Positions 1-61,169 of a stretch of DNA of 61,169 nucleotides are shown one piece after another. This stretch comes from Beroe ovata (lineage: Eukaryota > Ctenophora > Nuda > Beroida > Beroidae), in the NCBI GenBank assembly GCA_946803715.1, contig CAMPET010000176.1:2473-63641 (forward strand), written 5' to 3'. The notes below the pieces were generated by a model, which ran no database searches, was not told where the DNA came from, and saw nothing but the letters and a program-made list of their open reading frames with translations. Position numbers and translations under genes: made by a program. The stretch's first letter is position 1, and each line of letters starts with the position of its first letter.

Positions 1-1454
1 ATTCAGATTTTCACGACGGCCGTCACACTTGTGACATCTGATGGCAATCTAGTGATCGATCCAGTGTCACGTGACCAGATTGGATTGTACAAGTGTACCG
101 CTCGGAATGGATATGAGACTATCAGTGCTAGTGCCACGCTTGGTGTGAGAGGTAGGATGAAGTGAGAGTAGAATACGTGTCTCTCGGCATACTTTGTTTT
201 GGATTACTCCAATTTGAACAAGTTGTACAAATAACCGCTGCTTATCGACGAAAGCTCCGGTTTATTCTCTGCCAACCGCTGCTCATTCCATCAGGTCAAC
301 AAGTACCGGAGATAATCACTGGACCGGAAACTCAGACCGTGTTTATTGGACAGCAGGTGAAGGTATCTTGTACAGCATCGGCAGGACCCTCGCCTCAGAT
401 TTACATCCTGAAAGACGATGAGCCGGTCACTTCTGATGTGGTCTACGAGAGCGACGGTGAGGCTTGACACCACTTGCTAACACCACTTGCGGACATTATT
501 GCTTGACACCACTTCTTCACAATATACTCCCTGACATCACTTATTTACATCAATCCTTGACACCACTTGCTGACACCACTTGCTGACATTATTGAATATT
601 GCTTGACACAACTTATTGACACCACTTCTTGACATAATCACTTCTTGACATTCATTATCCTTCCTTGACATGTTGCTGAGTTGTATTTCACTTTTTGACA
701 CCGCTTCAGACACGGTGACAATATCGTTCTCCTTCATGGTCGAGGACACCTCTGTGACCGGTGTATACTCTTGTGTCGCTGTCAATAGCAGAGGAGCTGA
801 CAAGAAGGAGGGTGTCATCACTGTGTTCGGTAATTCAGAAATGTAGTTGTTTGACACTATTTAGCATCTTAACACTTGACACCATTTAGCATCACCCATG
901 AAATCAAATTCAGGATATCTAACATTTTCTCTCGCTTCCAGAGAAAGTGAAAGTGTCCCTAGTCCACTTCTCTATCGAGAGTTCTGCTCCGGAGGATACA
1001 GATTTCAGTACTGCTGTAGCTGACTTCCCTCGTGAGATACTGTTACACGAGCGTGTGGTGGAGGGAACGAGTATCACATTGGTTTGTCACGTGAACGGTG
1101 CTCCAACTCCCAATGTAACATGGACTTTGAATAACGAGGTGAATTTTAATCACGAGTTTTAGTTGAACTTGAAATTCAAAGTGAATCCAATGATATGGAG
1201 CCAATTCTTCAGAATTGCCGTGTTCTTCCATTGCATTGGCAAAAGTACATCAGATGAACGGTTATAATTTTTTGGTCAATTTGTCTGTTTACAGGTTCTT
1301 GAAGATGGTGAGAGATACAAAATCAATCGTCTCAACGATTCCTTCACTTCACTCACAATTTCTGATCTTACTGAGCTGGATGCTGGTCGATACTCGTGCA
1401 AGGCTACCAATTTCATCAGTAATGACCTAAAAACCATCAAGCTCAATATGGAAG
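1..1454 (+). other. Ig domains at left edge (exons 1-5 of the visible gene)
   Basis: Exons 1-151, 295-456, 710-829, 942-1138 and 1295-1454 encode the tail of one Ig domain ([11 protein letters not shown]) and two complete I-set-like Ig domains. Both keep the disulfide cysteines: VKVSC with VYSCVAVN, and ITLVCHVNG with YSCKATN. The Ig domains are split by an internal intron of phase 1 (456/710) or phase 0 (1138/1295). The exon at 942 opens with an extra segment of about 30 residues before its Ig starts. The left end of the first exon may lie outside the window. Confidence 0.85.
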
Positions 1455-16400: not shown

Positions 16401-19400
16401 CACGGCCGTCATCTCCAACGAGCACGGGAAGGAAGAATCGAGCGCTCAGATCTACGTGACACCGCACTACGGTACCCCGACATTCACACAAACACCCCTG
16501 GATGTAACGTTACCAAAGGGTAGCGACTACGTGATCCTGGCCCTGGTTATGACGAGCGGGGGCAGACCCGAGGTGTACGTGACCGATGAGGAGGGGGCTG
16601 TGGTGGTAGGAGGAGTAACGAGGAGTGCAGGTGGAAATAGCTGGAGATTCACTCTGCTCCTGTCTGATGTTCAGGTGAGATGGGAATTGACTAAGTGGTG
16701 GTTTGTGGGAATATTCCCGTGTTTTCTGCTACGAAATCATAGATCATGGATTCTGGAGTTTTCTTGAAGTTGAAACGCTACTATAGAACCTCAATCTGTT
16801 TTCTCTCATCTCACAGGAAGCGGACGAGGGACACTACACTCTCAATGCTCGAGTCAGTGAGGGATCCCCGGTCACCCAACACAGCTTCCATATCCGGGTG
16901 ATGTCGTACAGCACCGATATCCCCTTCACCTCACCTCCAACTCTGGAAACCCCTGAAAATCGGCGAGAAGATACACGTGAGTGTCAAACTGAAATTTGGG
17001 AATTTTAGATTTTGCAGAGCTGAGTTAAGGCCACTATGAGGACGTTACATCCCTACCAACTGGTTCATAACAGCTTGCCTCAAGATTATGTCACTTGTGG
17101 AATGAAACTCTGATTCCCATCACCATTCCTCAGGATTGAGGATCATTGACCCACTTCCTGAGACCACTCTCATAGTTCCTAGCAGAGACCTCGTGTTATT
17201 AGTGTCCGCATCGGGAAATGTCGAAGTAGGAGATATCATCGTAACGCTGTCCCACGCATGGAAGTCGATTAACATCGCTCTGAACGACCACATCACATAC
17301 ACGGTGTTGCCCGATGGATGGGTCGATGACGAGGCTCAGGAAGTGAAGAAGTGGCTGATTCAGGTCACCCTCCCCTACACCCAAGCACCACAGTCTGGCG
17401 ACCTTGTTCTAAGGATCATGGATAGCTGGAGCAGTGACATTACCTCCACGGGGCTGATATTCGACCAGGAGGCAACTGTAGGTGATGATCCCTACTTTGA
17501 TCCCAAACCAGAACCTGTGATCGAGGCCAAGGAGGGGGATGATGTGTTTGTGAACGTAGGGGTTCGAGGAACCGATCCGATTGAGGTTAGTAGTTCTTCG
17601 CAAAATCGAGTACAGTTCCAAGAAACATTTTGAGTACAGTCCCAAGGACTGTAGTGAGCCTAAACTTGTATCTCCTCTCTCTATACAATCTAACATAATT
17701 TTCCCTAGGTTCAATGGTCCAAACTGGACGATGACACCTCTGCTGACATCACTGCTGATGAGCGGATAACTCTACACAAGAACGGAAGTATATCCATCCT
17801 CGATATTCGACCAGAGGATGCCGGCCTGTATAGAGTGAGGATAGTGAACCCAGTTGGCAGTGAGGCTGTTTTGGTCGATATCCGAGTCGAGCCCAAAGAC
17901 GAAGAGAAGTCACGTGAGTTGTCATCAGATATCCTAGCGCTCAGATAATTAGCGTGTTCTTTCGGAAACTGAGCAATTGGTTTATATCAGAGACCGGGAT
18001 CACTGACCTGTGTTTTTAACTATACAGTCCCGGATAAAGTCTAATTGAAATTCTATCCTGGTGTAACATTTTCAGCGCTTGTTATCGTGTCACCTCTGCC
18101 CGGAGAAACTGTACTCAAACCTGAGGAGGACCTATCACTCAGTATAACTCTTCTCTCCACCGCTGAAAGTGAAAATGAAATCACTGTGTCCCTGGGACAT
18201 TCCTCCCGGGGAGAACACGAGGACATGACCAACTTCATATCTTACAAACTGGAGAAGGAGGATGGTGTAGAGGACGAAAGTGGACGGTATCTCTGGAGAC
18301 TGGACGTTACCCTGCCCCACCCATACTCCCAGTCATCTGGTGATGTGGTACTCAGTGTGGGAGATGGACACAGTGGGGATATAACCACCACACAACTCGT
18401 GATACACGAGGATACACTCCCCTACTTTGATCCTATCCCACGCTCAGTGGACGTCTACACGGGTGATGATGTTTTCATCAACGCTGGTGTAGCTGGACCA
18501 GGACCTATCAGAGTCAGTTTTCCTCAGGAATCTTGAAATCAGACATTGAAAGTTATCTTCATTGTGCAGTTGCCCGATAACCCATAATCCTCAGATTCGG
18601 TGGTTCAGATTTGATGACGGCTACATAGAACTGTCCAAATTCCCGGAGAAATACACAATTCACGACAATAGTAGTCTCTCGATTCCCAACATAGATGTGG
18701 ATGACGAAGGCACCTATGTTGTCCAGATTTCCAATCCTGAGGGATCAGTCGCAGAGTTTCTGGAGATAGCAGTTCATGAGAGATCAGGTTTGTGTCAAAA
18801 TTTACACTCATATTGCTGCTCTTCCAACACCAATTCATCATGACATCATTTTTTATGTTAGTTATCGCTGTTCTGATCGATAGTTTCATAATTTTCTCAT
18901 GGCATCTCATTTCAGATCTCGTCATTGTTGAGAGACTTCCCGAAACAACTTATCTCGAACCCGGCAATGATCTGAACATGGGCGTGACCCTGAACTCCAG
19001 CATCCGAAACAAAGACGACCTCACCATCTCACTGGGTCACTCCTCACGGGGAATTTACGAGGACATCACTGATCACGTGACATTCACACTCACACAAATT
19101 CCTGAGGAAGGAGACAAGGAGGATGATGATGCACGATATTGGGCACTGAACGTGACCCTGCCACACCCTCACTCGCAAGCGTCGGGAGACCTAACTCTGA
19201 GTGTGGGAGATAGTCACAGTGGTGATATCACTACCACACAACTTATCGTAGTGACACAGGAAGATGACACGAGTCCATTCCTTGATCCCGTGCCGAGATC
19301 AGTTGATGCACAGCCCGGTGATGATGTGTTCGTCAACGCAGACGCCAAGGGACCAGGCCCAATCGATGTTAGTTCCTGCCATAAAATGAGACATAAAATG

Positions 19401-22400
19401 AAAGAATCAAGGGTGAAATGTTCTGTTTTGGTTGTGACACAAATTTGTATATTGATCAATTTTCCATCAGATTCGTTGGTACAAGACCTCACCTGACTCT
19501 ACTGACTTCACGGAGATTGAACCTGACGATAGATTCACGATATATCCCAATGGGAGTCTGGCTATCGGAGACATCGCCGAGGAAGATGGCGGGAAATACC
19601 TACTCGAAGTTTCCAATAAAGATGGAAGTACAACCGCAGAAATATTCATCAACGTCTTTGACAAGCTCAACGGTTAGTTTTTAGTGACACATGGATTTAC
19701 ATTTGCTGGCGGTTTTCCAGTTGCTTTCCATCTAGTTTGAATGAGATCAGTCAATAGAAGAAAGCGAGTCAGCCAAAGATATCGAGATATAATCATGTAA
19801 TTGACATACTTTCCCCAGATATCTCCATCATCATCCCGCTTCCTGAGACAGTATACATTTCCCGCGATGAACAATTCCTGAAGATGAACATCACGGTGTC
19901 AAGTGATGACACCACCTCCTCAGAAGACATCTCCCTCTCCCTCATACCACGGGGTTATGAACACCACTTCACTGACCGCATGTCCTACACGATCCGTGAG
20001 AGAGCCAGCACGGTCGAGGGTGTCAAGATGTGGTCGATCGACATCACGCTGCCCTTCAGCACTGCACAGTTCGGTGGAGAATTGACGCTCGGTGTCAAGG
20101 ATGCTCATAGCAGTGACACCACTTCTACTCGGATCATTGTCGGACATAGGGATCTCTACTTTGATCCTGTACCCAGTAATGTGTTTGTGTTTGTCGGTGA
20201 AGATGTTATGATCGACACACAAGTCAAGGGAGCCACCAAGGTACGCCGATGACTTGGTTACAAGATACCATCCATGTTACTACCATGTTATGAATTTGCG
20301 GTTGAACTCTTCCCCCTCCATCCCCAGGTTCAGTGGTTCAGGACCGGTGAGATGTCTTTACAAATTGAAATAGTGAGCGGTGAAAAGTTTACGGTTCATT
20401 CTAACGGAAGCCTGAGCCTACACGACGCTCAACAGGAGGATGATACCAGTTACAAGGTCATCATATCGGATGATGACGGAAATGTGGCTGAGTCCAATGT
20501 CATCATCCGTGTCCTGGAGCAGCCTGGTGAGCAATGGACTTTCTCTTGAAGCTTCTATAAGTAGTCGTGAATTTCGTTGACAACCCTTTGCATTTAATCA
20601 TGGTTTTGATTTGCTACTTATATTTCCAGACTTGCTCATCATCAGACCACTTGCTGAAGAAACAACCATTGTCTTTGGCAAGCGTTTGGACCTGAACATC
20701 ACCGTTTTGACCAGCATAGCGACCACCAAGTCCGACTTGACCCTCTCACTCGGACATTCCCTGAGGGGTGTCTATAGTGACATTACCCCGCGATACTTCA
20801 CCTACAAGATATCAGAGGGTGATGAGTTTCTCTACGGATCGGGAAAAACCACATGGATAATCGAGATGGAGCTATCCTACCCCTCCTTTAGTGAGGATAA
20901 CATCGGACATATCATAGTTAGTGTGGGTGACAGGTATAGCGGAGCTATAACCAGTACCAGACTGGTAACTGATGAGGTGGTACGGGACTTGGAGGTACCA
21001 TCCATCACGGTACCATCTACCGTTAGGGTGGACCATGGTGAGGATGTATTCGTCGATGTGGAGGTGTTTGGATCCCTGCCAATCAAGGTAAGATCCATAT
21101 TTTATAGTTTGACATTCCATGAAATTTCAATGATTGTGTAAACCCTGTTGTTCAATGATAAGTTTGATATCAGTTTCTCGGTCGGTTAAGCTTTGTAGAT
21201 TCTGGCTCAGTTTGGACTATTCATATCTATTCTCCCATCAGATTATCTGGTTCAAGAGAGAACAGGAGCTCCTAACATACGCGTACGAAGTTGTCGACAA
21301 TGATGAAAAGATAACAATTCATCCCAATGGAAGTCTCACGATCATGGACCCTGATCAAGGTTCAAATGGACTTTACAGAGTTGTGGCATCTAATAGTGCT
21401 GGGTCCGATTTCAAAGAAGTTGATATCTCTGTGGCCCCAAAAGAAGAACCGAGAATTGGTAAGTTGTTTGCTCCCTTTGCTTGATACACCTAGTTACTGT
21501 CATTTTCTGGCCTCGTCCTTATCAAAACACACTCACACACCAGGTTTCGCTATCGTGGAGCCTCTCCCAGAAGTGATTAATCTGTTGCCCGGTGACGACC
21601 TATCAATGAGTATCATAGTGACTGCTGGTGCTGCATATCCTGCCGAAAGTACCATCACACTCTACCGACAGTCCGATACCAGGGAGAAGTTGGATCGTCA
21701 CATGATCTATGAGATCCGTACCATAGCGGAGCCTCAGCCTGGTATTGCGGGCACATTCGAGATTAACATCGTCGTGCCGTATCCACACTCCCAATCCTCG
21801 GGACTGCTCAGTCTGGAAGTTAGTGACGAGGTTGTGTATGAAACAACAGAGTCCACACTTGTGGTGGGCAGAGAGGGCGACGACGTGGCTCCATACTTCG
21901 ACCCGCTCCCGAAATCTGTGAAGTTATTCGTGGGAAATGATGTTCTCATTTCAACAGTTGCTAAGGGTTCTGCTCCCATAGAGGTTCGGATCAAGATTCA
22001 TACCAATCTTATGTTCACCTAAGTAGAAACTATACATTCTATTCACTCTTCCCTCTAACAGGTGACGTGGCTGAAAGAGAAGCCTGGTTCTAACCTCTAC
22101 GTGCCCATAACGGGTGATGCACACTTTGAGATTCGCCCGGAGGGCAGTCTCCAGATAACAGATCCCCAGGAGGTGCACAGTGGAGTTTACATTGCTCAGC
22201 TGTCCAATGATTTCGGAACTAAGTCTGTCATGCTAAACGTGGATGTTTTCACACGGGCAGGTACACATAACGAGAGTTGTGTTCGTTAGGTTGCTGTGTT
22301 TTCACACTCATTTTGATTCAACGATTCCTCTGGAACCTCTCTCACATCAGCTCATTCCAGATATCGAGATAACAGAGCCACTTCCCGCAACCACATACCA

Positions 22401-25400
22401 TGAGCCGGGACAAGACCTCAGACTGAGCGTTACCGTGCTTGCTACGATCACATCCTCAGATGAGATAACAGTTGCTGTACAACGGACAAAATTCCCACCC
22501 CTCGATATGATGAACGATGAAATATCCGCTCACATGGAGTATTCCGTTACCGAAGTCGAGGATGGTGGAAAAACTTGGCGGGTCGATGCCACGATCCCGC
22601 ATCCCTATTCCCAGCTATCGGCAAACTACACACTGAGGATAGGTGATGGTCACAGCGAGGATTCCACTACAACGAGTGTAGTTGTACGAGGAGGAGAGAC
22701 TGTGATTGAGGAGGAGGAAAAGGAGGGTGGGGTTCCGACCTTCGATCCGGTTCCTGTTGATGTGGAGGCTCGTCCGGGCGATGATGTGGTTATTGATGTC
22801 GGAGTCAAGGGCGAACTGCCTATAGAGGTAACGTTGGGTTTTTGACTTCAGTTTTCCCAGTTTCTGTGGAATATTAGGTCACAGAATATATTTCATTGCA
22901 ATTCTCTAGTCTACACGTAACGTGCGGTCAGGTTACTTGGTACAAGACAATACCTGATACTGATGATGGCAAGGATGGTGATAGAGAGAAGATTGTGGAT
23001 GATGGGGAGAAGTTTATCATCTCCCCCGAAGGGAGCCTCACTATTCTGGATATAACACCTGAGCAGGGTGGTAATTATGTGGTGGAAATCTCGAACGATG
23101 AAGGAAGTGTGGCTGCTGAAGTTGATGTCGATGTTATCATACTCATAGGTAGGGAAAGTTGTGATTGACGGGCGTAAAATAGACAAAATAGACCAGTCCA
23201 GATTTTTAGAAATGAATATTTTGTAGAACGCTGTTATTGTCGGCCGAGCAATGTCTGCTATGCAGTTCCGGAATTAACCCTTGACGCTCACGTTAATCTT
23301 CAGATATTGTCGAAGGACTGCCACCGCTAATGAATCTCGAGCAGAATCAACACCTGAACATGACCATAACCGTGGAATCCGGTGCTATTTCCCCCGACGA
23401 GTTGACACTCACCCTCCACCGTGATTCAGACGACGGTGTCAAGGATGAAGACGTGACACCGTATCTCACCTACTCAGCGATGAAGAGAGAGGATGGGTTG
23501 TGGGTGATCAGCACATCATTCCTAACTCCCTACAACCAGATACCCGGAGAACTGACGCTCGGAGTGAGGAATAAGCACGGACGTGACTCCACGACAACCC
23601 GGGCTCTGATGATGGATGGGAAGAGTAGTGTTCCGTTTTTCAACCCCCGACCAGAGTCTGTGGTGGTCCAAGTTGGTGATACCGTCACCATAAACTGTCG
23701 AGCAAGGGGGTCCCAGCCTTTCGAAGTGAGTTTTAGGATCACGCGTGTCCGGTAACGCATGCAAAGGGAGATATAACAACGGGTGATCTCACATTTGAAC
23801 TAAATGAATAAATTTCCTGAAATTGTATCTGTGAACAATCCCTTGCAGATCGAATGGACTAAGGTGTTAGCACCTCAAGATAACAGATACGTGATTAGTA
23901 ACGTGATCTATGGAGAAAATGAAAGGCAGACAAAATACACGCTCCATCCCGAGGGTAGCCTCACTATCGCCGATGTCCAAACTGAAGATGGTGGCACCTA
24001 CCACGTGCGGGTGACTGATAAATACGGCAACGTGGTTGAAGATTTTGTCAACGTGACTGTCATACTGGACACACGTGAGTAGCAGGGAGTAGGGGGAGCA
24101 GCAGTAGGGGGAAGCAGGGAGTAGGGGGGAAGTAGCAGGGTGTTTGGGTCTGGGGAAGTTAGTTTGGTCTAGTTTCAAGAGGGTAGCACGCGTTTCAAAT
24201 CGTCCTTTCATCGTTCCTTATCATTAAAATGATCTCATGTTCCACGTCTCAGAATTCGTCATCGTGAAGCTCCTTCCGGATGAAACGACGTGGAAACTCG
24301 GCAAGCCTCTTTATATGGACATCACAATCTCCGCAAACATCAGAGACGTTGATGATCTGACCCTCTCCCTCGGTCACTCTGCCCTCGGGGAATATGAAGA
24401 CATTACCGACAATCTCACCTATGAGTTGACGATGGTTCCATTATCTGAGTCAGACGCGGGGAATCAGACCTGGGTTGTAGAGATGGTCCTGTCCCCCCAT
24501 GACTTCACTGAAGACACCACGGGGCACCTGATTCTGAGTATTGGAGATGAGTTGAGCGGCGGTATCACCACGACAAAACTTGTCCAGAATGAGGAGGATG
24601 ACGATGAGGATGGTGGGGTGGTAACCAAACCATTCCTAGATCCGAAACCAGGCGATGTTACAGCTAGACCGAATGAGGATGTTTTGATTGATATCAATGC
24701 TAAGGGATCACAGCCGATCGAGGTGAGATCATAATCTTGATAATATCCTCAATCCAGCTCTCGATTAATTACAGTAGCTTGAATGAACCCCATTTCAATC
24801 CTCAACTTCAGCTAACGCGAGCAAATGTATTACCCTCAGATCACGTGGTATAAGTCTACTCCAGTGACTGGTGTATTCCTCGAACTGGTTGATGATGACA
24901 AGTTCACTGTTTACCCCAACGGAACCCTGCTCATTCACGACGTACAAGAGTCTGATGAGGGAACATACAGGATAGAGCTGAGTAATGATGGAGGTGTTGT
25001 TTCGCATGAGGTCGCGGTTGATGTGCTCCAGAAATCAGGTTTGACCCTTGTAGTGTTCTTCGTTACTCAAGGAAACATTGAAAACTGCCATTATCTTGAC
25101 ACTAGATAACGACAGTTTGATTCACACGCAAGACAATGATATGACAATACTTTTCAGTTCTGGTGATCGTGAGACCACTTCCTCAAGAGACACAAATCTC
25201 GCCCGGAGATTCTCTCGATGGAAACATCACAGTTAACGCCAGTATATCCCATGAGGACGAACTGACACTCGCTCTTGGCATATCATCAAAGGGAGTCTAC
25301 GAGGACGTCACTGAACATACAACCTTCACCATCACCAAGATCGGTGACATGACGGAGTTGATGTGGGGCATAGAGTTCACCCTGCCCCACCCATACTCCC

Positions 25401-28400
25401 AGTCATCTGGTGATGTGGTACTCAGTGTGGGAGATGGACACAGTGGGGATATAACCACCACACAACTCGTGATACACGAGGATACACTCCCCTACTTTGA
25501 TCCTATCCCACGCTCAGTGGACGTCTACACGGGTGATGATGTTTTCATCGACGCTGGTGTAGCTGGACCTGGACCTATCACTGTGAGTATATATTCTATT
25601 TTTACCAATTCAGGAAATTGGTTCATCTTGCCTGTCATTGATGACATCTGACGGAATCGAGCTATTCTCTGACACAATGTTCAATTCAGATACGATGGTT
25701 CAAACAAGATCCAGAATCTGGAGTCCACACAGACATTCCCGACAAGTTTGAGACTCACTCCAATGGTAGTCTGGGTATTCCCGATGTCCAGAAACAAGAT
25801 AACGGAACATATGTGATCGAGATCTCTAACGAGAATGGTGTCGAGACCGCTGAGGTTCACATTGTTGTGAAGCACAGAACAGGTACAGATCTCTTGCTAA
25901 CAGTTCCTGAAATTTTGACCTCAAAAACCCTCCAAATTGCAAGAAAGGTTTCTCTTTCCATGACAACACTGATGATGGGAATTTTCTCTTCAGATTTGAT
26001 CATTACCCGGCCACTCCCAACCGAAATCAAACTGTCTCCGGGAACGGACCTGGACATGGACATCACAATATCTGCCAGCATATCGAGCGGGAGAGATATA
26101 ATCCTGTCCCTGGGAAGATCGTCCAAGGGGGTGTACACCGATCTGACAGACCATGTGACATACAATGTGACAAAAGTGTCAGAGCAGGAGGAGCTGAGCT
26201 GGGATATCAGCGTGACATTGCACCACCCACACTGTCAAGGAAGTGGCAGTCTAACACTGAGTGTGGGTGACAGCCACAGTGGAGACATCACGTCTACCCG
26301 TGTTGTCATTGAGAGAGAGGGGGAAGAGGGGGAAGGAGGACCATTCCTTGATCCTGCCCCGACATCGGTAACTGTCACCCCTGGGGATGATGTTCTCATT
26401 GATACTGCTGTGGTTGCTTCAACTCCCTTCAAAGTGAGTTGTTCATTTCTCATTGGCACGATAGAAATATTGCAGTTCATATTCTAGAACAAATGTCGTC
26501 ACAAAGTTCCCCCCCTCTCAGCTAAAGTGGTTTACTATCAATCCCGAATCCGAGGAGAAGCAGGAGATCGAGGATGACTCCATCTTTACCCTTCATCCAA
26601 ATGGGAGTCTGGGAATCAGTGGTATACAGAGTGAGAATGAGGGCACCTATGTGCTGGAGGTCTCGGACAAAGAGGGAAACACTTCAGCAGAAGTGGTTGT
26701 GAGCGTGCTGGAACATCAAATAGGTTTGTTCTTCATCTTATTTGTCTGTAAATGCCAAGTCTCTGTCCTCGAATCGTGATCGACCTCTTATCCTCCTTTT
26801 TTCAGATCTAGAAATTCTAGAGCCTCTTCCAGATGAGATTACTCTTTCGCCTGGAGAAGACCTCAACATGGCAATAAGGATATCATCATCAATGACGGAC
26901 TCTGATGATATTTCAGTATCTCTCAGACACTTCTCGAGAGGAGGAAAACAGGGAGACCTCACGGATTTCCTCAGATACGATGTTTCTGAATACACTGACA
27001 ATGAGATGGAATATGAAAAGACACGAGAGTGGCAGATAGATCTGTCGCTTCCTCACCCCTACTCACAAGCATCCGGTGATGTCACTGTGACAGTTTCTGA
27101 CAGTCACAGCAGTGATTCCACCACGACACGTGTCATTGTTGTACAGGAAGAAGATGACAGTGCTCCATTCTTCGATCCGGCCCCTAGTTCAGTTACAGGA
27201 TACGTGGGTGAAGATGTCATCATTGAGACTGCGGTTAAGGGCGGTGATCCTATCGAGGTCAGTGCAAGATGTTGCTCAGTCACAGTGCAGTTTGTTTTCT
27301 CAATGATCATTTTATTGCCTTCTAGAATTATAGAAAGTCTAACTTAGTTTTCCCCTCAGACCACATGGTACAAACAGGATCCCAATACTCTTGAGTACAC
27401 GGAGATAGATAGTCAGGATGACATGTTCACGATACATCCCAATGGAAGTTTGAGTATCACTGATGTCGTTGAGGAGGATGAGGGAATTTACAAAATAGAG
27501 GTTGTTAACAGCGCTGGTTCTACGTCTGAGGAAGTTGAAGTTGAGCTTATGAGTCGAGATCGTGAGTTTTTTATGACTAAATCCTTTGAACTTATATCCA
27601 CTCCTCAAAGTGATGAGAAATCTGTCTAATTCAAGGTATCTGAGGTCTTTTCACCAAGTTAACTAGAAAATCTCGTCCCTCAGCGCTTGTAATAGTGGAT
27701 CCACTTCCAAAGACCACGCCCGTTGCGAAACCCCACGACATCTTCATGAGAGTAACCGTATCCACCGGTATACTCAGTGGTGATGAATTGACTCTATCAC
27801 TGGGACACTCCCTTATGGGAGTGTACGAGGACATCACAGACCATCTCGAGTACAGGGTATCTGAGCGGATACCTGATGATGAAGCTGATGATGAGGGTGA
27901 AAAGCTGTGGACAATCTACATGACCGTACCGTACATCTTCTCTGAGGATCTGGGTCATCTGATCCTGAGTGTCGGAGACAGCCATAGTGGTGCCATTACC
28001 ACAACGAGACTCGAGGAGGGAGAGGAGAGGGTGGAGATGCCGTATTTCGATCCGGTTCCATCGGATGTTAGAGTCCTACCAGGAGATGATGTTCTGATCA
28101 ATGCATCAGTTGCTGGATCACGTCCTCTAGAGGTAGGCGCGCATTAGGATCCGAATTCGACAACTTGCTCAACAAATGTTGACACCACAGCTGTTTCACT
28201 TGTATTAACCTCTACAGGTGTTCTGGTATAAGTTGGGCGATGATGACACCTCTGACGTCACTGTCATCCCGACCAATGACAAGTACACTGTCCACGGGAA
28301 CGGAAGTCTCACTGTACACGACTTCAAGGAGGAAGACGACGGAGGAGTGTACAGAGTCGTTGCCACTAATATCGCTGGGGAAACTGTTGTCGAGGTCAAA

Positions 28401-34400: not shown

Positions 34401-37400
34401 ATTGTATTTTCAAACACTTGTCACCAGATGGCAGCAATCGCTGTTCTATCATCTTACTTAGTTCTAATACAGTTCTGTTACAGATACGCTGGTTTAAGTT
34501 AGATCCAAACTCCCTCGAGCCGACTGAGGTCATTGATGACGATGACAAGTTCAACATTCATCCCAATGGAAGTCTGAGCATCACTGATGTCAATGAAGAC
34601 GATGAGGCTTCTTATGTTGTTGAAATAACGAATGGTGTTGGGGATGCTACTGTCACTGTTGACTTGACTGTTGTACAACGACGAGGTATAACTTTGCCAT
34701 ATATAGGAATAAGATTATTCTGATGATAAGAAATCCACAATTCTTATGATTCATGAACCCTGTTTCTCCCTCAGATTTGGTCATAGTGAAGCCACTTCCC
34801 AGAGAGACATTCTTCAAGCACGGTAGAGATCTTCATCTGAGTATCAGAGTTAATGCCAGTGTGACAAGTGAGACAGATTTCACTCTGTCACTGGGACACT
34901 CACTAAAGGGCGTCTACTCGGACATCACAAGTCATGTTGTGTACAGAACATTCACAATGGTGGAGGATGGTCCCAGTGATAAGGACAATGGACAGATATG
35001 GCAGATAGATGTCACTGTGGGTTCTCTCTTCACAGAGGAACTGGGACATCTTGTCCTCAGTATTGGGGATAAGTACAGCGGTGCAATCACAACCACTAAA
35101 CTCGTGGAGGCAAAGGGAGTGGAGCCCTACTTTGATCCTGAACCGAACTCTGTGGCAGTTGATAAGAATGACGATGTTCTCATCGATACCGCCGTGATGG
35201 GATCTGACCCAGTAGAAGTGAGAAAGGATTAAGATAGCAGATAGATTCCTTAGATCAATTTCCTCCTGGCTTTTTATCCACTTGCTACCTATTCGGTCAA
35301 CTGAAACATTTTGCAGATCACATGGTACAAACAGGATCCAGATACTCTTGAGTACACAGAGATAGATAGTCAGGATGACAAGTTCACGATACATCCCAAT
35401 GGAAGTTTGAGTATCACTGATGTTGTTGAAGAGGATGAGGGCACTTACGTGATTGAAGTTTCCAACAGTGCTGGTAGAAGCAGCAAGGAAGTTGACGTTG
35501 ATGTTCTTGATCCAATCGGTAAGTAAATTTATCTGCAGTTTCTTGTGGCATTAGTATGATCGCAATATTCGTCGTGTTATTTATATGATCTGAACAAACA
35601 CCCGCGCAGGACTGAAGATTCTGACGCCTCTGCCCCGTCTGATCTACTTGCATCCTGGAGAAGATCTCGACATGAAGATCACGGTATCCTCGGGCGAATC
35701 CGACACCGATAACATATACCTCGCAATGGAAACCCTAGTGGGAGACGAGTCCATTGATCAAACTCCCAACATGGACTATGTGGTGTCTGGTAGCGGTTAC
35801 CAAACCGATAACATGACATACATCTGGGACATCGACATGACTCTACCTGGTCGTTACGTGACGGAGGGAGATGTTGTTGTGAGTGTATCAGACCGGGATA
35901 ATAGTCGTCCAGTCACCACCCAGAGCACGGTGGTATACAAGGAGCTGGTACGGGAACCACCAGTATTCGACCCCCCTCCTCCACGATCAGTCGTGGATTA
36001 TGTCGGGGAGGATATTCTCATCAGTACTCGAGTCAAGGGATCTACTCCTATTCAGGTAGCTGTTTTACATATCTTTTATTCACGTCTTCGACTTTAGTCT
36101 TTAAAGAGCTATGCAGACATCACCTAGCAGCTGTACCATATACCTATCAGTTTTTCATTCACTTACTCTTATCAGGTCCAATGGTACAGACGAGACTTCC
36201 CGACTTCTGACTTCACCGAGATAAGCAGTGGTTCCAAGTTCACCATTCACAACAATGGCAGTCTCAGTATTCGGGATGGAGAGAAGGAGGATGAGGGCAT
36301 GTACAGGGTTGTCATCTCGAATAGATATGGAAATGAGTCAAGAGACGTGGATGTTGATCTGATCAAGCGAATCCGTAAGTTATCAAGCATTCATCCGAGC
36401 TTTCGTTACATTGAAATCGAGCTCTTGTTACATCGTATCCTAGTTTCCGTTCCTGGGTTATAACATTGAAATGATCCTTCATTTTGCTCCCATTTCAGCG
36501 TTGGTAATAACTGTTCCGCTGGATGTTGAAACCGTGGTGGAACCTGAATCCAATGTCAATCTGTCCATCACGATCAAAGCAACACTGAGAAGCGAAGACG
36601 ACTTGATCCTATCCTTCGGTCATTCAGTCAAGGGAGTGTACCACGACTTCACCGAGTACTTCACCAGCCACTCCGCTGAGAAGTTGGAATACACCCCTAC
36701 TAATGATGAGGAGGATGATGTGGGAATGTGGCACATCGACATGCTCGTTGAGTACCCCTATGACGAAGTCAAGGGTCACTTTATCATCAGTGTGGGTGAC
36801 AACCACAGCGGTGCTATCACCACCACTAAACTTGTCACGGAGAGGGTGGAGGAGATTGTAGCACCGTTCTTTGATCCACTCCCCGAGTCGGTGTTTGTGT
36901 TTGCTGATCAGGATGTTCTCATCAACATAACCGCTCAGGGGTCTACCCCTATTGAGGTAGATGATTGGGGTCACACATCATATTCTACACTCATCATCTT
37001 GTCAAACCTTCATCATCTCATGAATTGAATTTTCGTTTTTGCAGATTGCCTGGATTAAGTTTGATGTGGAAACCTTCGAATACGTGGACATAACTGATGA
37101 CGGGAAGTATACTATTCACCCCAATGGCAGTTTAGAGATATCCAGTGTCCAGACCACTGATGATGGGATCTACAGAGTTGGGCTATCCAACGAGATTGGT
37201 AAAGCCTCAGAGGAAGTCGAAGTTGTGGTCTTGCAGCGAACTGGTTAGTTATGAAATAACCTAGAAATGTGCAAAACCTAGAAATGTGCCAAAATTTCAA
37301 TAACCTTACCCAGATTTACTCCTAAGTTTTTCATCCATCCCTGAAAGTCCTTCATTTTCAGATTTGGTAATCGTGGAGCCACTCCCCGAGGAGACCTATC

Positions 37401-40400
37401 TGAAGCCCGGTGAAGATCTCGACCTGGACATTGTCGTGAATGCCAGCATCTCACATGAAGATGACCTAATCCTATCGTTCGGTCATTCTGCCCGTGGTGT
37501 TTACCACGACCTCACTGACCATCTCGAGTATACGATCAGTGAGATGAATCAGGATGAGGAGGGAGAACGGGATGAGAGAGTGAACACCAGATTATGGGGG
37601 ATAGCGATGAAACTGCCGTACCCGTACAGCCAGGCTCCGGGAGATTTCATAGTCAATGTCGGTGATAGTTACAGCGGTGACTTCACCTCCACACGGGTTA
37701 TCATAACTGACAAGGACAACGCTCCATTCCTTGATCCGGTACCGGAACCGGTCAGAGTGTACAACGGAGATGATGTTTTCATTGATACCCAAGCAAAGGG
37801 ATCCAGACCTCTCAAGGTTGGTGCTATCAGTTGTGATAAACTATGAGATGGAGATTTAGCGGAGATTTCTGACGAATTTCATGTAATGAAAGATGAATTA
37901 CGTAAATTTCACCTACTTCTTTTCAGGTGAAATGGTACAAGACGACCCCCGAATCCCAGCTTGACATCAGCAATGATCCGAGGGTCCATGTTCACAAGAA
38001 CGGTAGTCTGGGTATAGATGACATCCAGGACGAGGACGAGGGAACCTATGTGATAGAAGTGTCAAATAATGACGGAACTATCAGAGAGGAAGTGGAGATA
38101 GAAGTCATTCAAAAGACAGGTTCCCGAGGGAGACATGAATGTTTTTTTTAACCGAATTCTTCATTGATGTTTGATCGTTCCATAGTTTTAGAGAGGAGTT
38201 TCGACCTAGATCTCATCTAAATTCCATCCCCTCAGCACTGAAGATTGTGGAGCCACTACCACGAGTCATGTACCTGGCGCCCGGCCAAGACCTGAACATG
38301 ACCATAGCTGTGAATGCCAGTGTCACTGACGAATTCGAGATAAAACTCTCGCTCAGAAGATCATTTGGCGCCAATATCGACGATATACAATCCCTCACGA
38401 AACACATCTCTTACAACATCCGCCCTGCGGTGGAAAGTGATGAAGATGATAACACGACGTGGTCGATTAACGTGACACTCCCCTACCCCTACTCTCAAGC
38501 GTCGGGAGAGTTGAGTCTAGAAGTCAGGGATCGGCACAGCAGTGACTCCACTTTGACTGATCTGATCATCAGATCGGATAGGAGGAATAGATTCCCCTTC
38601 TTCGATCCTATCCCGAGATCTGTCAAGATCAACCCAGATCAGGATGTGCTCATCAATACTCGGGCTAAAGGAAGTCGTCCACTTTCTGTGAGTGTGTTAC
38701 AAATCTCTCTCTCTATCATCATCTTCTCCAACATGATTCCATCACTGATCACTCCCACATCATAAATGCATTCATTTATCAATTCTAAACTTCATCAGGT
38801 GAGCTGGCACAAACTCCTGCCATCCTCTGATGACGTCATGATGACCATGGTGTCTGATGACAAGTTCACTGTCCATCCCAATGGTAGTCTGAGTATCCTG
38901 GACGCCCAACAACAAGATGAGGGATCGTATAGGGTAGAAGTGGAGAATGGTTACGGCAAGGCGTTTGCTGTCGTTAGCATTGATCTTGTGCCCTGGAATC
39001 GTGAGTATATTTCTGGAGATTTTCCCGCCTTTTCCTGAGACATAGTGAAGTAGGGGATGTCGGTCGTACTGCGGCAATCTCTATGTTGTTTCCATACCTT
39101 ACCGCCGTATGCTACTAACCTTCATTTAGATCACATTTCAGCTCTGGTCATCACTGAACCACTACCCAGCGAGACCCACATCCCAGTTGGTGAAGTTCTG
39201 AACATGAGCATCATTGTGAACACCAGTTTAGCCACGACTGAGGACGACATCATCCTATCCCTCGGTCATTCCTCACGGGGTATCCAACAGAACCTGACCA
39301 AGTACCTTACATACGAGATATCCGAGTCCGATGATGAGGACGGTGATGTCAGAGTGTGGAACATATCGACAACTCTACCCTACCCATACTCCCAATCTGC
39401 CGGTTATCTGACACTGAGTGTGGGTGACAGTTACAGTGGTGACATCACCTCGACCCGGCTTGTCATTGGAGATGATGAGGAAGAGTACAATAGAGCTCCG
39501 TACTTTGACCCTGCCCCTGAACCACTAATCATGGTTCATCAGAATGAGGAGGCAGTCATCAGCACTAGAGCACGAGGATCACCTCCCTTAGATGTTAGTA
39601 AACGAGATGATATGAGCCTAGAATTGATAAACCTTGAATTGATAAACCTAGCTAGTTGATGAATCTAAGAGAGCCTTATTTAGGTATGCACATTGCACAT
39701 AACTCGTCGTTTCCCTAAAATCATGCTATGGTTTCAGATACGCTGGTACAAATCAAATCCAGACTCATTCGACTACACTCCGATATTCAGTGGATCTAAG
39801 TACACCGTCCATCCCAATGGTACTCTCAGTATAATGAATGTGACTGAAGAGGATGTTGGATCCTATAGGGTAGAGGCCACGAACAGCTTCGGCAGAGCAT
39901 CTGAGGATGTTGAACTCGAACTTATTCCTAGAATAGGTTTGTTTCCCAAGCTCAAAATTCAGGAAAAATTAGTATAAGATTAGATCCAAAAACTGGATCG
40001 AATTTGAGATTTAGTGCTCTGACCATATTTTCACTTTCCCAGCGTTGGTGATAGTGGATCCTCTCCCCAAGGAGACAGCCCTAATTCCAGGATCAGACCT
40101 AAACCTCAGTGTTGTTATCAACGCTAGCGTTGCCACGGGAGACGAAGTTACCGTCTCACTCGGTCACTCGTCACGCGGCATATACCACGACCTCACAGAC
40201 CACATCTCGCACAACATCACTCTCATCAGTGATGATGACGTGGACAAGGAGTCAGGCAGGGAGTGGCAGATTGATCTGCACCTGCCCTACCCTCACTCGC
40301 AAGCGTCGGGAGACCTCACTCTGAGTGTGGGCGATAGTCACAGTGGTGATATCACTACCACCAGGCTGGTGGTCGGTCAGGAGGGACGAGGGGTCGCTCC

Positions 40401-43400
40401 GTTCTTCGATCCTATTCCCAGATCAGTGAAAACTTACATTGGACAAGATGTTTTGATTAACACAGAGGCTCGGGGGTCAACGCCCATTGAGGTGAGCCTA
40501 TTTTCGGATATTATCGAGCTCACCTTTCCTTACTCTCTTTCTTTTATGTTTCATCTAAATATTGTCCCCAATGATCACCCCAATGGGGTAAACTATATGA
40601 AAATAGGAGTTGGTTTTGACTCCCATCTTCTCACGCACTACCACCACTCTAGGTTACCTGGTCGAAGAAGGGCTCCACTGACTCCGACTACACGGAGCTA
40701 GAGACTGGTGATAAGTTTACAATCCACTCCAATGGCAGTCTCACTATCACCGATACCCAAACATCTGATGAGGGCAGCTATAGAGTGACCATCTCGAACA
40801 GTATCGGACAAGCGTCTGAGGAGATCGATGTTGAATTACTCCGCAAGAACCGTGAGTTTGGAATCGGGCAATTTCACTCAACTCCCTCGTCTGTTATAGA
40901 GGAGTTATTGAGGAGATGAGTCTCTATTATACCAATGAGATATTCACCTGATTTTTACCCTTGACTCCTGGTATGTATCCTCACTCCCCTCTCTCTTCCC
41001 TCAGCACTGGTTATTGTGGATCCTCTTCCAGCGGAGACATTCCTGATGCCAGGAGAAGATCTGGATATGGTGGTCACGGTCAATGCCAGCATTGTGGACG
41101 AGGATGAAATCACGGTGTCATTGGGTCATTCTCTGAACGGGGATTACCAGGACATGACTGACCATCTCGTGTATGACATCACGAAGAATGATGACACTGG
41201 TGATGACAGTGATGATGGAGATCTCTGGGATATAGTGATGACTCTGCCACACCCATATTCTCAAGCATCTGGAGACCTGACTCTAAGTGTAGAAGACAGT
41301 CACAGTGGTGATACCACTACCACCAAGCTGAAGATTGGAAAAGAGGGAAGAGGGGTTGCACCATTCTTCGACCCCATGCCTAGATCTGTGAAGATTCACC
41401 AAGGAAAAGATCTGTTCATCAACACAGAGGCAAAGGGATCCGCACCAGTTACTGTAAGTCCCGATATATTATGTTCTGTGATTTGTCTCAATATTTCTTT
41501 GTCTCAATATATGTCCCCTGTTGTCCGTGTTCCATGTATCTCGATTGAGACACTCTCTCCCAACTCCTCACATCCCAGGTTAACTGGTACAAGTTGGAGC
41601 TCCCCTCTACGCTGGTGCAACTCGAGAACGACGACAAGTACACGATCCACACTAACGGTAGTCTCGACATTGCTGACATAGGGAGTGAGGACGGAGGTAG
41701 ATACCGAGCCAAGATTTCCAATGACTTCGGAACTGCTTTTGTGGTCATCAACGTCGATGTCATTGATAAAACACGTGAGTTTGCTACCTATCCACTTACC
41801 ATCGGTTGTATGAATGATGTTGATCTATCAGTTGATCAAACTCTGACATATCTGTCAGTCAGTTGCTCTCCCATGCTCATAATTTCTCTCCCCAGCCCTG
41901 GTGATTGTTGAGCCGTTCCCCGTGGAGAGTGTTCTGAGACCAGGAGATGACCTACATCTGAACATCACGATCAATGCCAGCATCGCCACAGAAGACGAGT
42001 TGATACTTTCCCTTGGTCACTCATCCAAGGGCGTGTACAGAAACCTCACGAAATACCTGTCATACGAAGTGTCAGAGCAAGATGAAGATGACACGGAGAC
42101 AAACACCGGTAAACTGTGGAACATCAACGTGACTCTGCCACACCCTCATTCGCAAGCGTCGGGAGACCTCACACTGAGTGTGGGAGATAGTCACAGTGGC
42201 GATATCACTACCACCAAGCTGGTGTTGGAGAGAGAGGGTGATGCTACTGCCCCCTTCTTCGATCCCGCCCCCAAATCTGTCAGAGTGACACCTGGAGATG
42301 ATGTTCTCATTGACACTGCCGTCATTGGTGATGAGCCAATGGAGGTGAGTTCCATTACAACCTGCCTTGGCGCCTTGGGCACTGATCATTCATTAACTTA
42401 TCAGTAGATGTTCCCTTTTTTCTCTTGATCTAAAGAATTCTCATTTCCAGATTGGTTGGCAGCGAATCGTATCCTATCCAGCAACAATAATTGACATTGT
42501 GAATGATGACAAGTTTAAGATACATCCCAATGGAAGTCTGAGTATCACTGATGTTGGTAAGGAGGATGAGGGCATGTACAGGGTGATAGCATCGAATGAT
42601 GCCGGTACGGCTGAGGCAGAAATTGAGATTGATCTTACTTCGAGAACAAGTTAGTGAAGCAGTGTTCAAAAATTCTATTCAAACTACGTCGAATCCGGTG
42701 TTCGTTATGATACCTCGCAGCACTAAAATGAACATCATCCCTCCTCTTTCCAGGACAAAAAGCTCCCGAATTTGAACGTGAACTCCAAGGAGCATTTATC
42801 ATGGAAGGAGATGATCACGAGGTGACATTTGTTGTATCCGGTATCCCAGAACCAGATGTAGTTCTGACCCAAGACGGTCAGGAGCTGGACATCACCAGTT
42901 CGCCTCACGATCTCGGAACCAAGTACACTTACCAGATCGAGGATGCTAATCTGGGCGATGGCGGAGTTGTGGTTGCCATGGCAACAAACCCACTGGGAAC
43001 AGCACAGTCTACTGCTCTTCTATCTGTGTACATGAGACTGAGACCAGCTGAGTTTGAGTCCACGCCTGATGACGTCAGCTTGATGGAGGGTAGTGATCAC
43101 GTGATTACAGCTGTAGTGACAGGAATACCCAAACCAGTGGTGAATCTTACCGATGGCCAGGGGGATCTGGTAGAGGGAGGTCAAATGAGGGTTGTAGATG
43201 TCAACAAGTGGATGTACACGCTCATCTTAACTGATGTTCAGGTTAGTAGCCTCATTGTGAATTCATCATTATGGAGTATGGACTCCGAAATTTAAAGAAT
43301 TGAAGCCGGTAAAATGCCAAAATCCTCGATCATGATCTCTCAAGAGAGAGTAAATTCCATCTCATGATCAAACTCCCTTATCCCACAGTATGCAGATGTT

Positions 43401-46400
43401 GGCACCTATACAATCCAGGCTTACAATGGAATAGGAACTCCTGCCACACACGATTTCCTAGTGTCCGTGTCACCCACAGTCACCTCCTCCAATGGGATAC
43501 ACGTGTACAGCACCACTGAACCACCCTCTGTATACGAACCTACATCTCGTGAGTGGAAATAGTAGTTTGTCACATGTTTCCATATTCATTCTGCTGCATC
43601 CATAACCGACAAATCCATCCGATTTTAACTCATTTCCCTCTTTACCACAGCACTGGAAATAGTGAAGCCGCTCCCCAAGGAAACGTACCTGAAGCCAGGC
43701 TCCGATTTGAACATGAGCATCACCATATTTGCGGACATAACCGGTCCCGATGACGTGTTTGTTTCCATTGGACACTCCACGAAGGGCGAGTACCAGAACT
43801 TGACGGAGCACCTCCTGTACGAAATGTACGAGGTGGAGGCGGATGAGGAGGCGGGGGAGGTTGAGGAAGAGGCGGGTGAAATGTGGAACATTGACATGGT
43901 CCTGCCCTACCCTCACTGCCAGTCCTCGGGTAATCTGAGTCTCAGAGTGAGAGACAGGGATAGTGCTGATTTCACCACCACTAAGCTCATCGTGAGAGCA
44001 GAGGGCAGGGATAGAGCCCCATTCTTCGATCCTGTCCCCAAATCTGTGGTAGTGGAGGACGGGGAGGACGCGTTTGTAGACACGCGTGTCAGAGGATCCA
44101 AACCGATCAAGGTTTGTCATTTCCTGTGACCCCATTCTCTGTTAACAGTCCGAAAAATAGGTATATGACCGCAATTCCCCACAGACACGCTGGTACAAAG
44201 TGGACCCTGCAGACGAAGTTGTCACCCCTGTACTGAATGATGATGACAACTATCTTATTCACCCTAACGGTAGTCTGAGTGTACTCGACACAGATAGGGA
44301 AAATGAGGGCAGGTATAGGGTGGTCGCGAGTAATGAATTCGGAAACGCTGAACAAGAGATTGACGTACGGATTGCCGGACAGACAGGTAACGAATATCTC
44401 GCTCTGCTAAATTTGAAAAAAGTTTCACTTCATCGCGTCCACGAAACTAATTATTCCATATAAGGACATAACCACCTCAATCTACCCCCAGGAGAGTGGA
44501 CTAAGTGGAGTCCATGTTCGGCTGAGTGTGGGGGAGTTCGAACTCGATCAAGAACTATATGTGAAGAGGATAACACAACCACTAACGGTTAGTATTGGTT
44601 ACTCTTTCCGGGCTATTTCCTGTAGTATTCCCGACAGAGCACCAGTACTCCAATAATTTCTTACCTACTCTTACCCTACTCTACCCAATCCCATATAATC
44701 CCTCATTCCCAAACTCCCCCCAGACTCCTTCCTACCAACCTGTGTAGAAGAGGACCAGGTGGAGAAATGTGGCATTGACGAGTGCCCAGGCTTCTCAGAT
44801 TGGGGCCCGTGGACCCCCTGTTCAGCTGAGTGTGGGTACGGGTACAAGCGACGGGAGAGGGTCTGTGACAGGCCACCACCCACACGCGGGTTGGATTGTG
44901 AGGGCCTCGCCGTCGAGAAATCCGTGTGTTACATCAAGAGTTGTCCAGAGAGAGGTACCGGACAGATTTATCATTGTATGATTTTAATAGCCAGTTATTA
45001 TATACTGAATCAGTTTAGCCAGTTATAACCAAATTCCTGACCCCTCCCCTGTCCCCACCCAGTAAACGGACAGTGGACAGAATGGACAGCATGGAGTGAC
45101 TGTTCCGTCCCCTGTGGCACGGGAACACAGCGGCGAACCCGCACATGCACTAACCCCGCGCCCTCTGGCGGAGGCGCCACTTGTGAGGGCGCAGGTCACG
45201 AGTCTCGATCATGCTCGATCAAGCCTGTGTGCCGGCGGAAAGTTGCCATGGATACTTGGGGAGCGTGGAGTGAGTGTTCGGCCAAGTGTGGAGGTGGAAT
45301 TCAGGAACGAGAGAGGGATTGTGACCCTGCAAGTGGGAAATGTGGGGAAAAGCAAGTCAGAGACTGTAATACCATGGATTGCGCCATGATGAATGTGCGC
45401 GCGCCCCTCAGACTCACCAAGAGAGTAGGGGACGTTGCCATGGTGCCGTTTAGAGTTGGATTTGGGGAGATAGATGTGTGCTTACTGGGTGAGATAACTC
45501 CTGGGCAGAGTTACACTCTACTTGATACACAGGATGTGCAGATATATGGCATTCTCAGATCGGTGAGTGAAAAATGTCAGACTTCGATTACTATTACTAT
45601 TAACATTGCTATTAGAATTTAGTAGAATAACTAGTATAATCTATCAATATCGCATGCAATCGGTCAATCTCAAGGAAAGTATATGAGTCCTATCTCAGTC
45701 TTTTGACACCCACGTGTTCGTCCTACTGATGATCAATATCTGTAAAGTACCGCCTTGACTCCGTTGTTGAAGTTGAATCGGCTCCCCGACGAAGTCGACT
45801 TCGTGCTAAGCCGTGACTTGATGTGTTTGAACTCCGAACTTATCCCCTTCTTCAGTGACCGTCCCCTCAGAATCATGATCATAGGACTAAACATGGCATT
45901 GACCACGTGTAGCACACATGAGGAGAGATACATGAGCCTTGCCTCCCCTGCTCCTGTCTTTCTCTGGACATATCCACTCGGCTGGAAGTAGTAAAGATAG
46001 ACAGCAGTGGCGGACAGGTTGCAGATCAGGAAGAGGAGTGTGAGTTGGAAAATGGTGATTGCCGGACGCCGGGTTACCACCTTCTGACTGCTCCTCATTT
46101 CTACCTTGGAAACTGTGAGGTGGTATATCTGGAAAATGAGGCAGATGGAGACCAGGACGGCAGGGAGAAGAAATGGGATGGACATCCCAAAGAGGATCAG
46201 CTCAAGATAGGATGCGTCATGCCCGATGATGGATGAGGCAGCTCCATTGCCCGCCATGGGCATGTAGATCATGTATTTGAAGAGGGACGAGGGTTTGTAT
46301 AGATATCCCATCTTGATAACCCAGTGAACATCATATACAACGAGCATAGCCCAGAATAAGGGACAGAGGAGACAGGCTACCTTGACCAAGCCCAGCTTGA

Positions 46401-52288: not shown

Positions 52289-52860
52289 CCTAAAGAAACG
52301 AAGATGAAACGAACTGCTAAATAACCAACTTGAAATTGATGAAGCATAGAGTCAAGTCTTGTATACGGGACCATATTTTATCTCCAAACAAAACTAATGG
52401 AAGATAAATGTATTATGCTATCATGAAAATGTATATCTGATTTCACGGTGCTATGGGGGTTTCTGCTCTGACATGTGCTCGAAATTTCCTGTGTGAGGAA
52501 AACCACTTTTAACCTTGTTTTCCCACATGATAATTTATTGCTCAACGAGTATACAGAAGGCATACAGAATCGATGTGAACCCACGCAGAGGGATAAATCA
52601 AATATTGTATAGCAAAATAATGCGGTGTTGGTTTTGTAGTTTTACCAACCCCCCTTTATATTTTCTTCCTGAACATGTTTGATGTCATGAATAATGTCAC
52701 GTACAGTATCATATTACATCCTAAATGTCCACCTACCTCTAGTGTAGCTTGCACCCATGTGACTATGAAAATGAGTAATGACCCATAGTTACCAGTGTCT
52801 AGTAGTTTAGTATGAGAATAGAAAACTAGCCCAAACGCGGTACCTATCTCATTCAGTACT
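52289..52860. promoter_or_regulatory. Short head-to-head intergenic region, likely shared promoter
   Basis: Fewer than 600 bases separate the divergent DUF3445-like and FHIP2-like coding regions. The stretch must contain both transcription starts plus any 5' exons. I see no clear TATA box or other core element, and the FHIP2 start codon could lie here on an exon I could not resolve. Confidence 0.45.
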
Positions 52861-61133: not shown

Positions 61134-61169
61134 GTGAGAGAAGTGTTAACTTGTCTTTGAATTTGCACT

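Follow-up and report, generated by a model that had tools for sequence, protein, structure and literature searches.

Hemicentin is a giant protein with a long array of immunoglobulin (Ig) domains and TSP1 domains, and it carries VWA and EGF_CA domains besides these. In titin, I-set domains are arranged in tandem with short linkers. The passages of PMC8544517 that deal with DIG-1 describe a C. elegans matrix protein of the Ig family with 13,084 residues, which is needed for dendrite fasciculation and for the maintenance of axon position. According to portions of PMC7493085, tandem beta-sandwiches with linker Ca2+ act as stiff extenders in bacterial RTX adhesins. Here we describe an array of 30 two-exon units in a 61,169-nucleotide stretch of DNA from Beroe ovata (contig CAMPET010000176.1, positions 2,473 to 63,641; hereafter the window), in which each unit pairs a domain without a family name, called domain A below, with an I-set domain. 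With somewhat better than even confidence, we read the array as the middle of a giant, probably secreted Ig and TSP1 matrix or adhesion protein, in which domain A would be Ig-like and the array would form a glycosylated polyanionic spacer. The novelty probably lies in this unnamed, diverged, probably Ig-like domain and in its thirtyfold alternation with I-set domains. The array was not described in the literature searched, a limited search with most subscription journals outside it. The words thrombospondin, immunoglobulin, hemicentin and titin do not occur in the main text of PMC10282587, which covers the glass sponges Aphrocallistes vastus and Oopsacas minuta.

The locus shares tandem I-set domains and short linkers with titin, and profile matches cross domain borders in register as in titin arrays. 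Unlike in titin, the diverged domain A makes up half of the domains of the array, disulfide cysteines are lacking, and TSP1 domains and conserved sequons point to an extracellular protein. A giant size and a long Ig array combined with TSP1 domains are shared with hemicentin. However, the VWA and EGF_CA domains of hemicentin were not matched here, and most TSP1 matches precede the array. In the genome searched (77.8 Mb, 534 contigs, the window being part of contig C176), 51 TSP_1 matches were found at an E-value of 1e-5, and 18 of these lie on this contig (15 before and three after the array). At an E-value of 0.001, VWA and EGF_CA gave 6 and 86 matches in the genome, none of them on C176 or on contig C399, which overlaps the start of the window, and the 5′ end of the gene is incomplete here. 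A search for G2F (nidogen) gave no match in the genome, nor in the controls. A hemicentin-1-like protein of different make-up is reported for the coralline sponge Vaceletia in part of PMC4633127. DIG-1 is, by analogy, the nearest functional comparison: in the passages concerned it is likewise a giant extracellular matrix protein of the Ig superfamily with a large region unlike known families, but FN, VWA and EGF domains are present in it, and the unusual region is poorly conserved, of unknown function and not made of Ig-paired repeats (PMC8544517). As an analogy of mode of action only, RTX adhesin extenders are tandem beta-sandwiches that hold binding domains off a surface, as described in PMC7493085. 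These are bacterial, however, and the linker Ca2+ demonstrated there is only guessed for the present array.

A profile built from 10 seed copies of the array was searched against the window's open frames of at least 30 codons on both strands. It recovered 30 copies of domain A at 17134-44386 on the plus strand with E-values of 1.2e-17 to 1.2e-50, the next best match having an E-value of 1.2. A single copy used as query matched 29 places in the genome at an E-value of 0.01, all inside the array on this contig. Exon 1 of each unit encodes domain A and the first strands of the following Ig domain, and exon 2 encodes the remainder of that Ig domain. A preliminary description of this DNA had drawn the first domain as about 150 residues long, which is the length of the whole first exon; domain A including its linker comprises 109-126 residues, and the remainder is the start of the next Ig domain. 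All 30 units fit an open two-exon scheme with a phase-1 acceptor, a phase-0 internal donor and acceptor and a phase-1 final donor, although splice sites were picked under one phase scheme, so that this uniformity arises partly by construction. The exon structure is predicted from genomic sequence alone, the exon-2 acceptors were selected with a tryptophan near the start, and the final donors of units 6, 9, 10, 11, 15 and 24 are weak and provisional. Introns within units measure 73-161 bases and those between units 58-181 bases, and the interval before unit 30 spans 1001 bases.

Units 1-29 splice into 18,894 nt that encode 6,297 amino acids without a stop codon. The limits given earlier fall on the acceptor of unit 1, at 17134, and on the donor of unit 30, at 44386. 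The number, place and frame of the copies were correctly described. The statement that thirty copies lie in one gene stands as to count and frame, but the copies are not uninterrupted: between units 29 and 30 the frame continues through two additional exons encoding two other Ig domains, which had been missed. The layout is 29 + 1 units, interrupted by two other Ig domains. From phase, order and strand we infer that the array and the flanking exons (Table 1) belong to one gene.

The preliminary description had called the second domain of each unit I-set-like and cysteine-free, and this was borne out with the exception of two copies. At least 19 of the 30 exon-2 halves passed the Pfam I-set cut-off with exon 2 alone; this count is a minimum, since scoring covered 150 of 326 candidates. 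When a profile of the second domains was compared with I-set domains encoded by other genes in this genome, for which 22 of 30 retrieved loci were used, the match had a probability of 98.8% and an E-value of 8.4e-17. The tryptophan of strand C is present in 30/30 second domains and the G-x-Y of the tyrosine corner in 27/30, and cysteines occur only in units 6 and 8, one each, so that no copy holds the B/F disulfide pair. By these sequence features, the second domain is of the I-set type but lacks the disulfide cysteines.

For domain A we compared profiles globally and permuted its columns in blocks of 8-12. Against the second domain, 1 of 400 permutations attained the observed score, and none of 400 did so against all Ig domains, a set that includes the second domain. 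With nine further Ig domains from this gene none of 200 permutations reached it, whereas the comparison with cadherin gave no separation (112/200). The global score was 18.9 against the second domain (8.0 when reversed) and 15.3 against the nine other Ig domains (2.8 when reversed). When a deeper profile of domain A only, for which 25 of 58 copies were used, was compared with the PDB, titin came first with an E-value of 0.081. In this alignment the G-D-L-T-L ... T-T-T-x-L block of domain A lies on the F/G strands and the P-G-x-D-L block on A′/B. A profile of domain A plus the start of the next Ig domain (A3) matched titin with 2.9e-10 summed over stretches, along a path that crosses from the last strands of domain A into the next Ig domain as in a tandem Ig array. 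Similarly, a profile of the end of the preceding Ig domain plus the beginning of domain A continued into the next Ig domain in several alignments; in both of these profiles, which combine domain A with genuine Ig sequence, the latter contributes much of the score. Because titin is the top PDB match and the likeness to the Ig domains of this gene depends on strand order, we regard domain A as a probable new branch of the Ig-like fold, cysteine-free, acidic and diverged. Its strand order is probably Ig-like and closest to that of the Ig domains of its own gene, with no significant assignment to a family.

Several results weigh against an Ig-like domain A. Searches of all 30 members against Pfam gave as best matches PKD_6 (0.0014), PKD (0.0083) and V-set (0.029), each for one member out of 30. 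The best Ig-named matches were V-set and Ig_VWA7 (0.075), none of them significant, and nothing better than 0.01 was found in NCBIfam for the same 30 members. Each single stretch of the titin match of the domain-A-only profile scored at most 3.5 bits, far below significance; the single stretches of A3 had i-Evalues of 0.032 or worse, with much of the score given by the true Ig part, and no alignment was obtained for the central part of domain A, which holds the acidic loop. In the permutation test, I-set domains of other genes were reached by 10/200 and fn3 by 3/200, and in the controls fn3 against Ig gave 3/100 (cadherin against Ig, 36/100). Global scores were 8.2 for the I-set domains of other genes, which was no better than fn3 (8.0), 3.1 for cadherin, 2.0 for TSP1, and 1.8 for the four Ig domains flanking the array taken alone. 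Local comparison of domain A with the second domain gave an E-value of 5e-4, against 1.1e-3 for reversed domain A, and I-set domains of other genes scored 15.3 locally, below their own reversed copy (20.5). Taken together, the order of the strand-like blocks in domain A is Ig-like when compared with the Ig domains of this gene and less clearly so with I-set domains of other genes, and fn3 is positive too.

The Ig hallmarks were likewise not found in domain A, in which strand names are inferred. Cysteines occur only in units 11 and 30, one each, which leaves no B/F disulfide pair. Of the 30 copies, 29 have a tryptophan; it sits in the W-x-I block, further along in the second half of the domain, and not in strand C. 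At the D-x-G-x-Y corner the glycine is kept in 29/30, whereas the place of the tyrosine is mostly taken by leucine, valine or isoleucine. The near-invariant tryptophan in the second half and the near absence of cysteines would also suit a truly new beta-sandwich or other non-Ig fold that was fused to an I-set domain and then duplicated with it. The lack of any Pfam match better than 0.0014 or NCBIfam match better than 0.01 and the failure of I-set domains from other genes to outscore fn3 speak for such a fold. So does the result of the profile made from window copies alone, which in the PDB matched just phage MS2 coat proteins (best E-value 0.0046). The strand-order test against the Ig domains of this gene and the weak but in-register alignment of both ends of domain A with titin Ig domains argue against it, and we consider a new fold rather unlikely. 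Kinship with the MS2 coat protein itself was taken as chance, the alignment being partial and its E-value rising to 0.38 with the deeper domain-A profile.

Domain A might instead belong to another family of Ig-like fold, such as PKD, fn3 or bacterial Ig-like domains, without being a relative of I-set. The top single Pfam matches to PKD_6 and PKD would fit this, as would fn3, which separates from permutations nearly as well as the Ig domains. The PKD matches are isolated members, however, and with an fn3 profile of five sequences only, the global score was 8.0 for fn3 compared with 18.9 for the second domain; we find this alternative quite unlikely. The earlier statement that the first domain matches no known family was upheld, as no convincing match was found in Pfam or NCBIfam among 30 copies. 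The proposal that it defines a new extracellular repeat family holds in part: matches to the Ig fold are only weak, which by the measure set in that description supports a new family, but the weak matches and the strand-order test point to Ig and not to a domain unrelated to known folds.

The spliced units 1-29 contain 1143 aspartate and glutamate residues versus 426 lysine and arginine residues, and three cysteines in 6,297 amino acids. In domain A, the D-L-T block and the W-x-I block enclose the variable acidic stretch. An NxS/T sequon is found at one column in 15/30 copies of domain A and at one column in 27/30 Ig domains. TSP1 domains and such sequons are typical of the cell exterior, and because both are present, the protein is probably extracellular. 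Mean identity between units is 0.375 for domain A and 0.405 for the Ig domain. By codon position, identity over 435 unit pairs is 0.546, 0.626 and 0.343; third positions are the least conserved, and it is therefore the protein sequence that is kept.

Near-identical tracts, defined by a length of 50 bp or more and an identity of at least 93%, are shared by three pairs: units 12 and 16 (235 bp, 97.0%), 2 and 10 (210 bp, 97.6%) and 3 and 29 (89 bp, 94.4%). These tracts fit patchy gene conversion. Their presence, and the high variability of the loop before the W-x-I block compared with most of the alignment, could also be expected of an allorecognition or immune recognition molecule, in which the acidic loops would be selected for diversity and not as a spacer. 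Ig arrays often serve recognition, and this role is compatible with an Ig-like fold. However, the codon positions indicate net protein constraint between units, and we regard a recognition function as distinctly unlikely. In a tree of 52 rows from the 58 copies, with bootstrap not settled, units 5, 9, 13, 17, 21 and 23 form a supported group (GAITTT clade), and the first five are spaced by exactly four units. A lag of four was reached by 170 of 5000 shuffles for domain A, 61 for exon 1, 47 for the second domain and 218 for exon 2, counts uncorrected for the 12 lags. Lag 12 in domain A (108/5000) and lag 9 in exon 2 (44/5000) were stronger. A four-unit higher-order repeat is suggestive only.

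In the spacer reading that we favour, domain A would be an Ig-derived beta-sandwich from which the disulfide, the strand-C tryptophan and the tyrosine corner were lost and in which a long acidic loop arose ahead of the invariant W-x-I strand. With a length of about 4 nm per Ig-like domain, some 60 nearly cysteine-free sandwiches placed head to tail may form a stiff rod, glycosylated and polyanionic, about 0.2-0.3 micrometre in length. TSP1 and Ig ends of such a kind often bind matrix or cells, and the rod might keep these adhesive ends apart and function without disulfides. Divalent cations on the acidic loops may rigidify it; this is a guess, as are the role of calcium, any binding partners and a link to silica. 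The array would have grown by tandem duplication of the phase-1-bounded exon pair, accompanied by patchy gene conversion. A further step, which we put forward as speculation and consider unlikely, is that domain A is a lineage-restricted variant in which an Ig domain was turned into a disulfide-free, acidic, cation-rigidified module, making its thirtyfold alternation with I-set a purpose-built extracellular rod, perhaps connected with the silica skeleton or the syncytial tissue of glass sponges. Were the animal a glass sponge, a group in which the content of the plugged junctions has yet to be determined according to PMC10280926, the protein would be a candidate component of matrix or adhesion structures. 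If the DNA comes from an early-branching animal, that animal would have a giant adhesion-type protein with half of its array blank in standard domain libraries. A profile of domain A would allow homologues to be annotated and would offer a test case for Ig divergence without cysteines outside the cell.

We also searched for relatives of the array. All or part of the exon encoding domain A and the Ig start is carried by 29 database proteins, none of which has a name or a precomputed Pfam domain. Eight come from a record whose longest contig measures 216,251 bases and four from one with 986,445, and these proteins are consistent with arrays elsewhere. A second homology search with 37 query sequences, in which the best 8000 candidates were scored, added one new protein and no named family. 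Protein P0029 is clearly related to unit 30 (74% identity, reciprocal best with a wide margin). One-to-one orthology of units was rejected, since reciprocal best matches were found for 5/29 proteins and a wide margin only for this pair. The tree contains starred groups of window and database sequences for units 24, 27 and 28, yet BLAST places P0001 nearest to unit 27 and not unit 28. In prokaryote and virus collections, 123 and 27 stretches matched the pattern, and none was confirmed by tblastn with one protein per scan.

Table 1. Positions in the window of the array units and of the neighbouring parts of the presumed gene
Feature	Position	Strand	Basis or remark
Whole array: 30 two-exon units of domain A plus I-set domain	17134..44386	+	profile search, splice phases
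Unit 1	17134..17913 (exons 17134-17585, 17709-17913)	+	
Unit 2	18076..18787 (exons 18076-18512, 18595-18787)	+	
Unit 3	18916..19672 (exons 18916-19367, 19471-19672)	+	
Unit 4	19819..20526 (exons 19819-20240, 20328-20526)	+	
Unit 5, GAITTT clade	20630..21458 (exons 20630-21087, 21242-21458)	+	
Unit 6	21544..22284 (exons 21544-21983, 22062-22284)	+	last donor weak
Unit 7	22361..23148 (exons 22361-22827, 22932-23148)	+	
Unit 8	23304..24074 (exons 23304-23725, 23849-24074)	+	
Unit 9, GAITTT clade	24253..25038 (exons 24253-24722, 24840-25038)	+	last donor weak
Unit 10	25158..25882 (exons 25158-25582, 25690-25882)	+	last donor weak
Unit 11	25994..26747 (exons 25994-26433, 26522-26747)	+	last donor weak
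Unit 12	26806..27561 (exons 26806-27257, 27360-27561)	+	
Unit 13, GAITTT clade	27684..28416 (exons 27684-28132, 28218-28416)	+	
Unit 14	28538..29309 (exons 28538-29010, 29093-29309)	+	
Unit 15	29449..30210 (exons 29449-29921, 30024-30210)	+	last donor weak
Unit 16	30392..31152 (exons 30392-30837, 30951-31152)	+	
Unit 17, GAITTT clade	31268..32041 (exons 31268-31692, 31837-32041)	+	
Unit 18	32193..32944 (exons 32193-32629, 32743-32944)	+	
Unit 19	33035..33818 (exons 33035-33459, 33602-33818)	+	
Unit 20	33921..34685 (exons 33921-34375, 34484-34685)	+	
Unit 21, GAITTT clade	34775..35518 (exons 34775-35217, 35317-35518)	+	
Unit 22	35610..36374 (exons 35610-36055, 36176-36374)	+	
Unit 23, GAITTT clade	36499..37243 (exons 36499-36956, 37045-37243)	+	
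Unit 24	37362..38119 (exons 37362-37816, 37927-38119)	+	last donor weak
Unit 25	38236..39000 (exons 38236-38687, 38799-39000)	+	
Unit 26	39142..39936 (exons 39142-39593, 39738-39936)	+	
Unit 27	40043..40851 (exons 40043-40491, 40653-40851)	+	
Unit 28	41005..41774 (exons 41005-41453, 41579-41774)	+	
Unit 29	41896..42649 (exons 41896-42344, 42451-42649)	+	
Two further Ig domains, in frame with units 29 and 30	42754..43548 (exons 42754-43241, 43389-43548)	+	I-set 5.4e-15 on open frame of first exon; splice phases
Unit 30	43651..44386 (exons 43651-44111, 44185-44386)	+	database relative P0029
Ig pair directly 5′ of unit 1	16048..16950	+	open frames; Ig_2 0.0001, I-set 0.00027, neither reaching the cut-off
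5′ part of the same presumed gene: Ig + TSP1 exons	1..16047	+	TSP_1 and I-set matches; window begins inside gene
Three TSP1 domains after the array	44795..45382	+	TSP_1 8.2e-12, plus 1.8e-18 with two stretches

By eye, the Ig pair 5′ of unit 1 resembles the pair between units 29 and 30, and because a similar-looking pair precedes unit 1, unit 30 may be a copy of the first block of the array. Two pieces of contig C399, of 2829 and 804 bases, overlap the start of the window at 93% identity, and the contig continues upstream; in our reading it is the second haplotype and contains a larger share of the 5′ end. For window positions 1-3635, a 93% match to C399 would be a high divergence if these are two haplotypes of one animal. 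In the upstream frames on the reverse strand of C399, visual inspection showed recurring YGV..DG..W-like motifs between Ig exons, which may represent a beta-propeller. A tectonin-like propeller was suspected by eye in these exons, but Pfam tectonin matched once, on another contig, and we do not claim it.

Directly past the array gene, a 627-codon open frame is located on the minus strand (45736-47616), with a 7tm_1 match of 0.0064 that is below the cut-off. Also on the minus strand, positions 51113-52351 hold a single open frame of 413 codons that resembles the alpha subunit of haem-dependent oxidative N-demethylase (PF11927, E-value 6.8e-62). This family is mainly microbial, and its presence in an animal genome is perhaps worth noting. 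On the plus strand, exons of a ribonucleotide reductase small chain were matched at 59114-61157 (PF00268, 5.8e-19 and 5e-17), and between them, at 60173-60577, lies a tandem repeat with a 111-base period, 3.6 copies and 82% matches.

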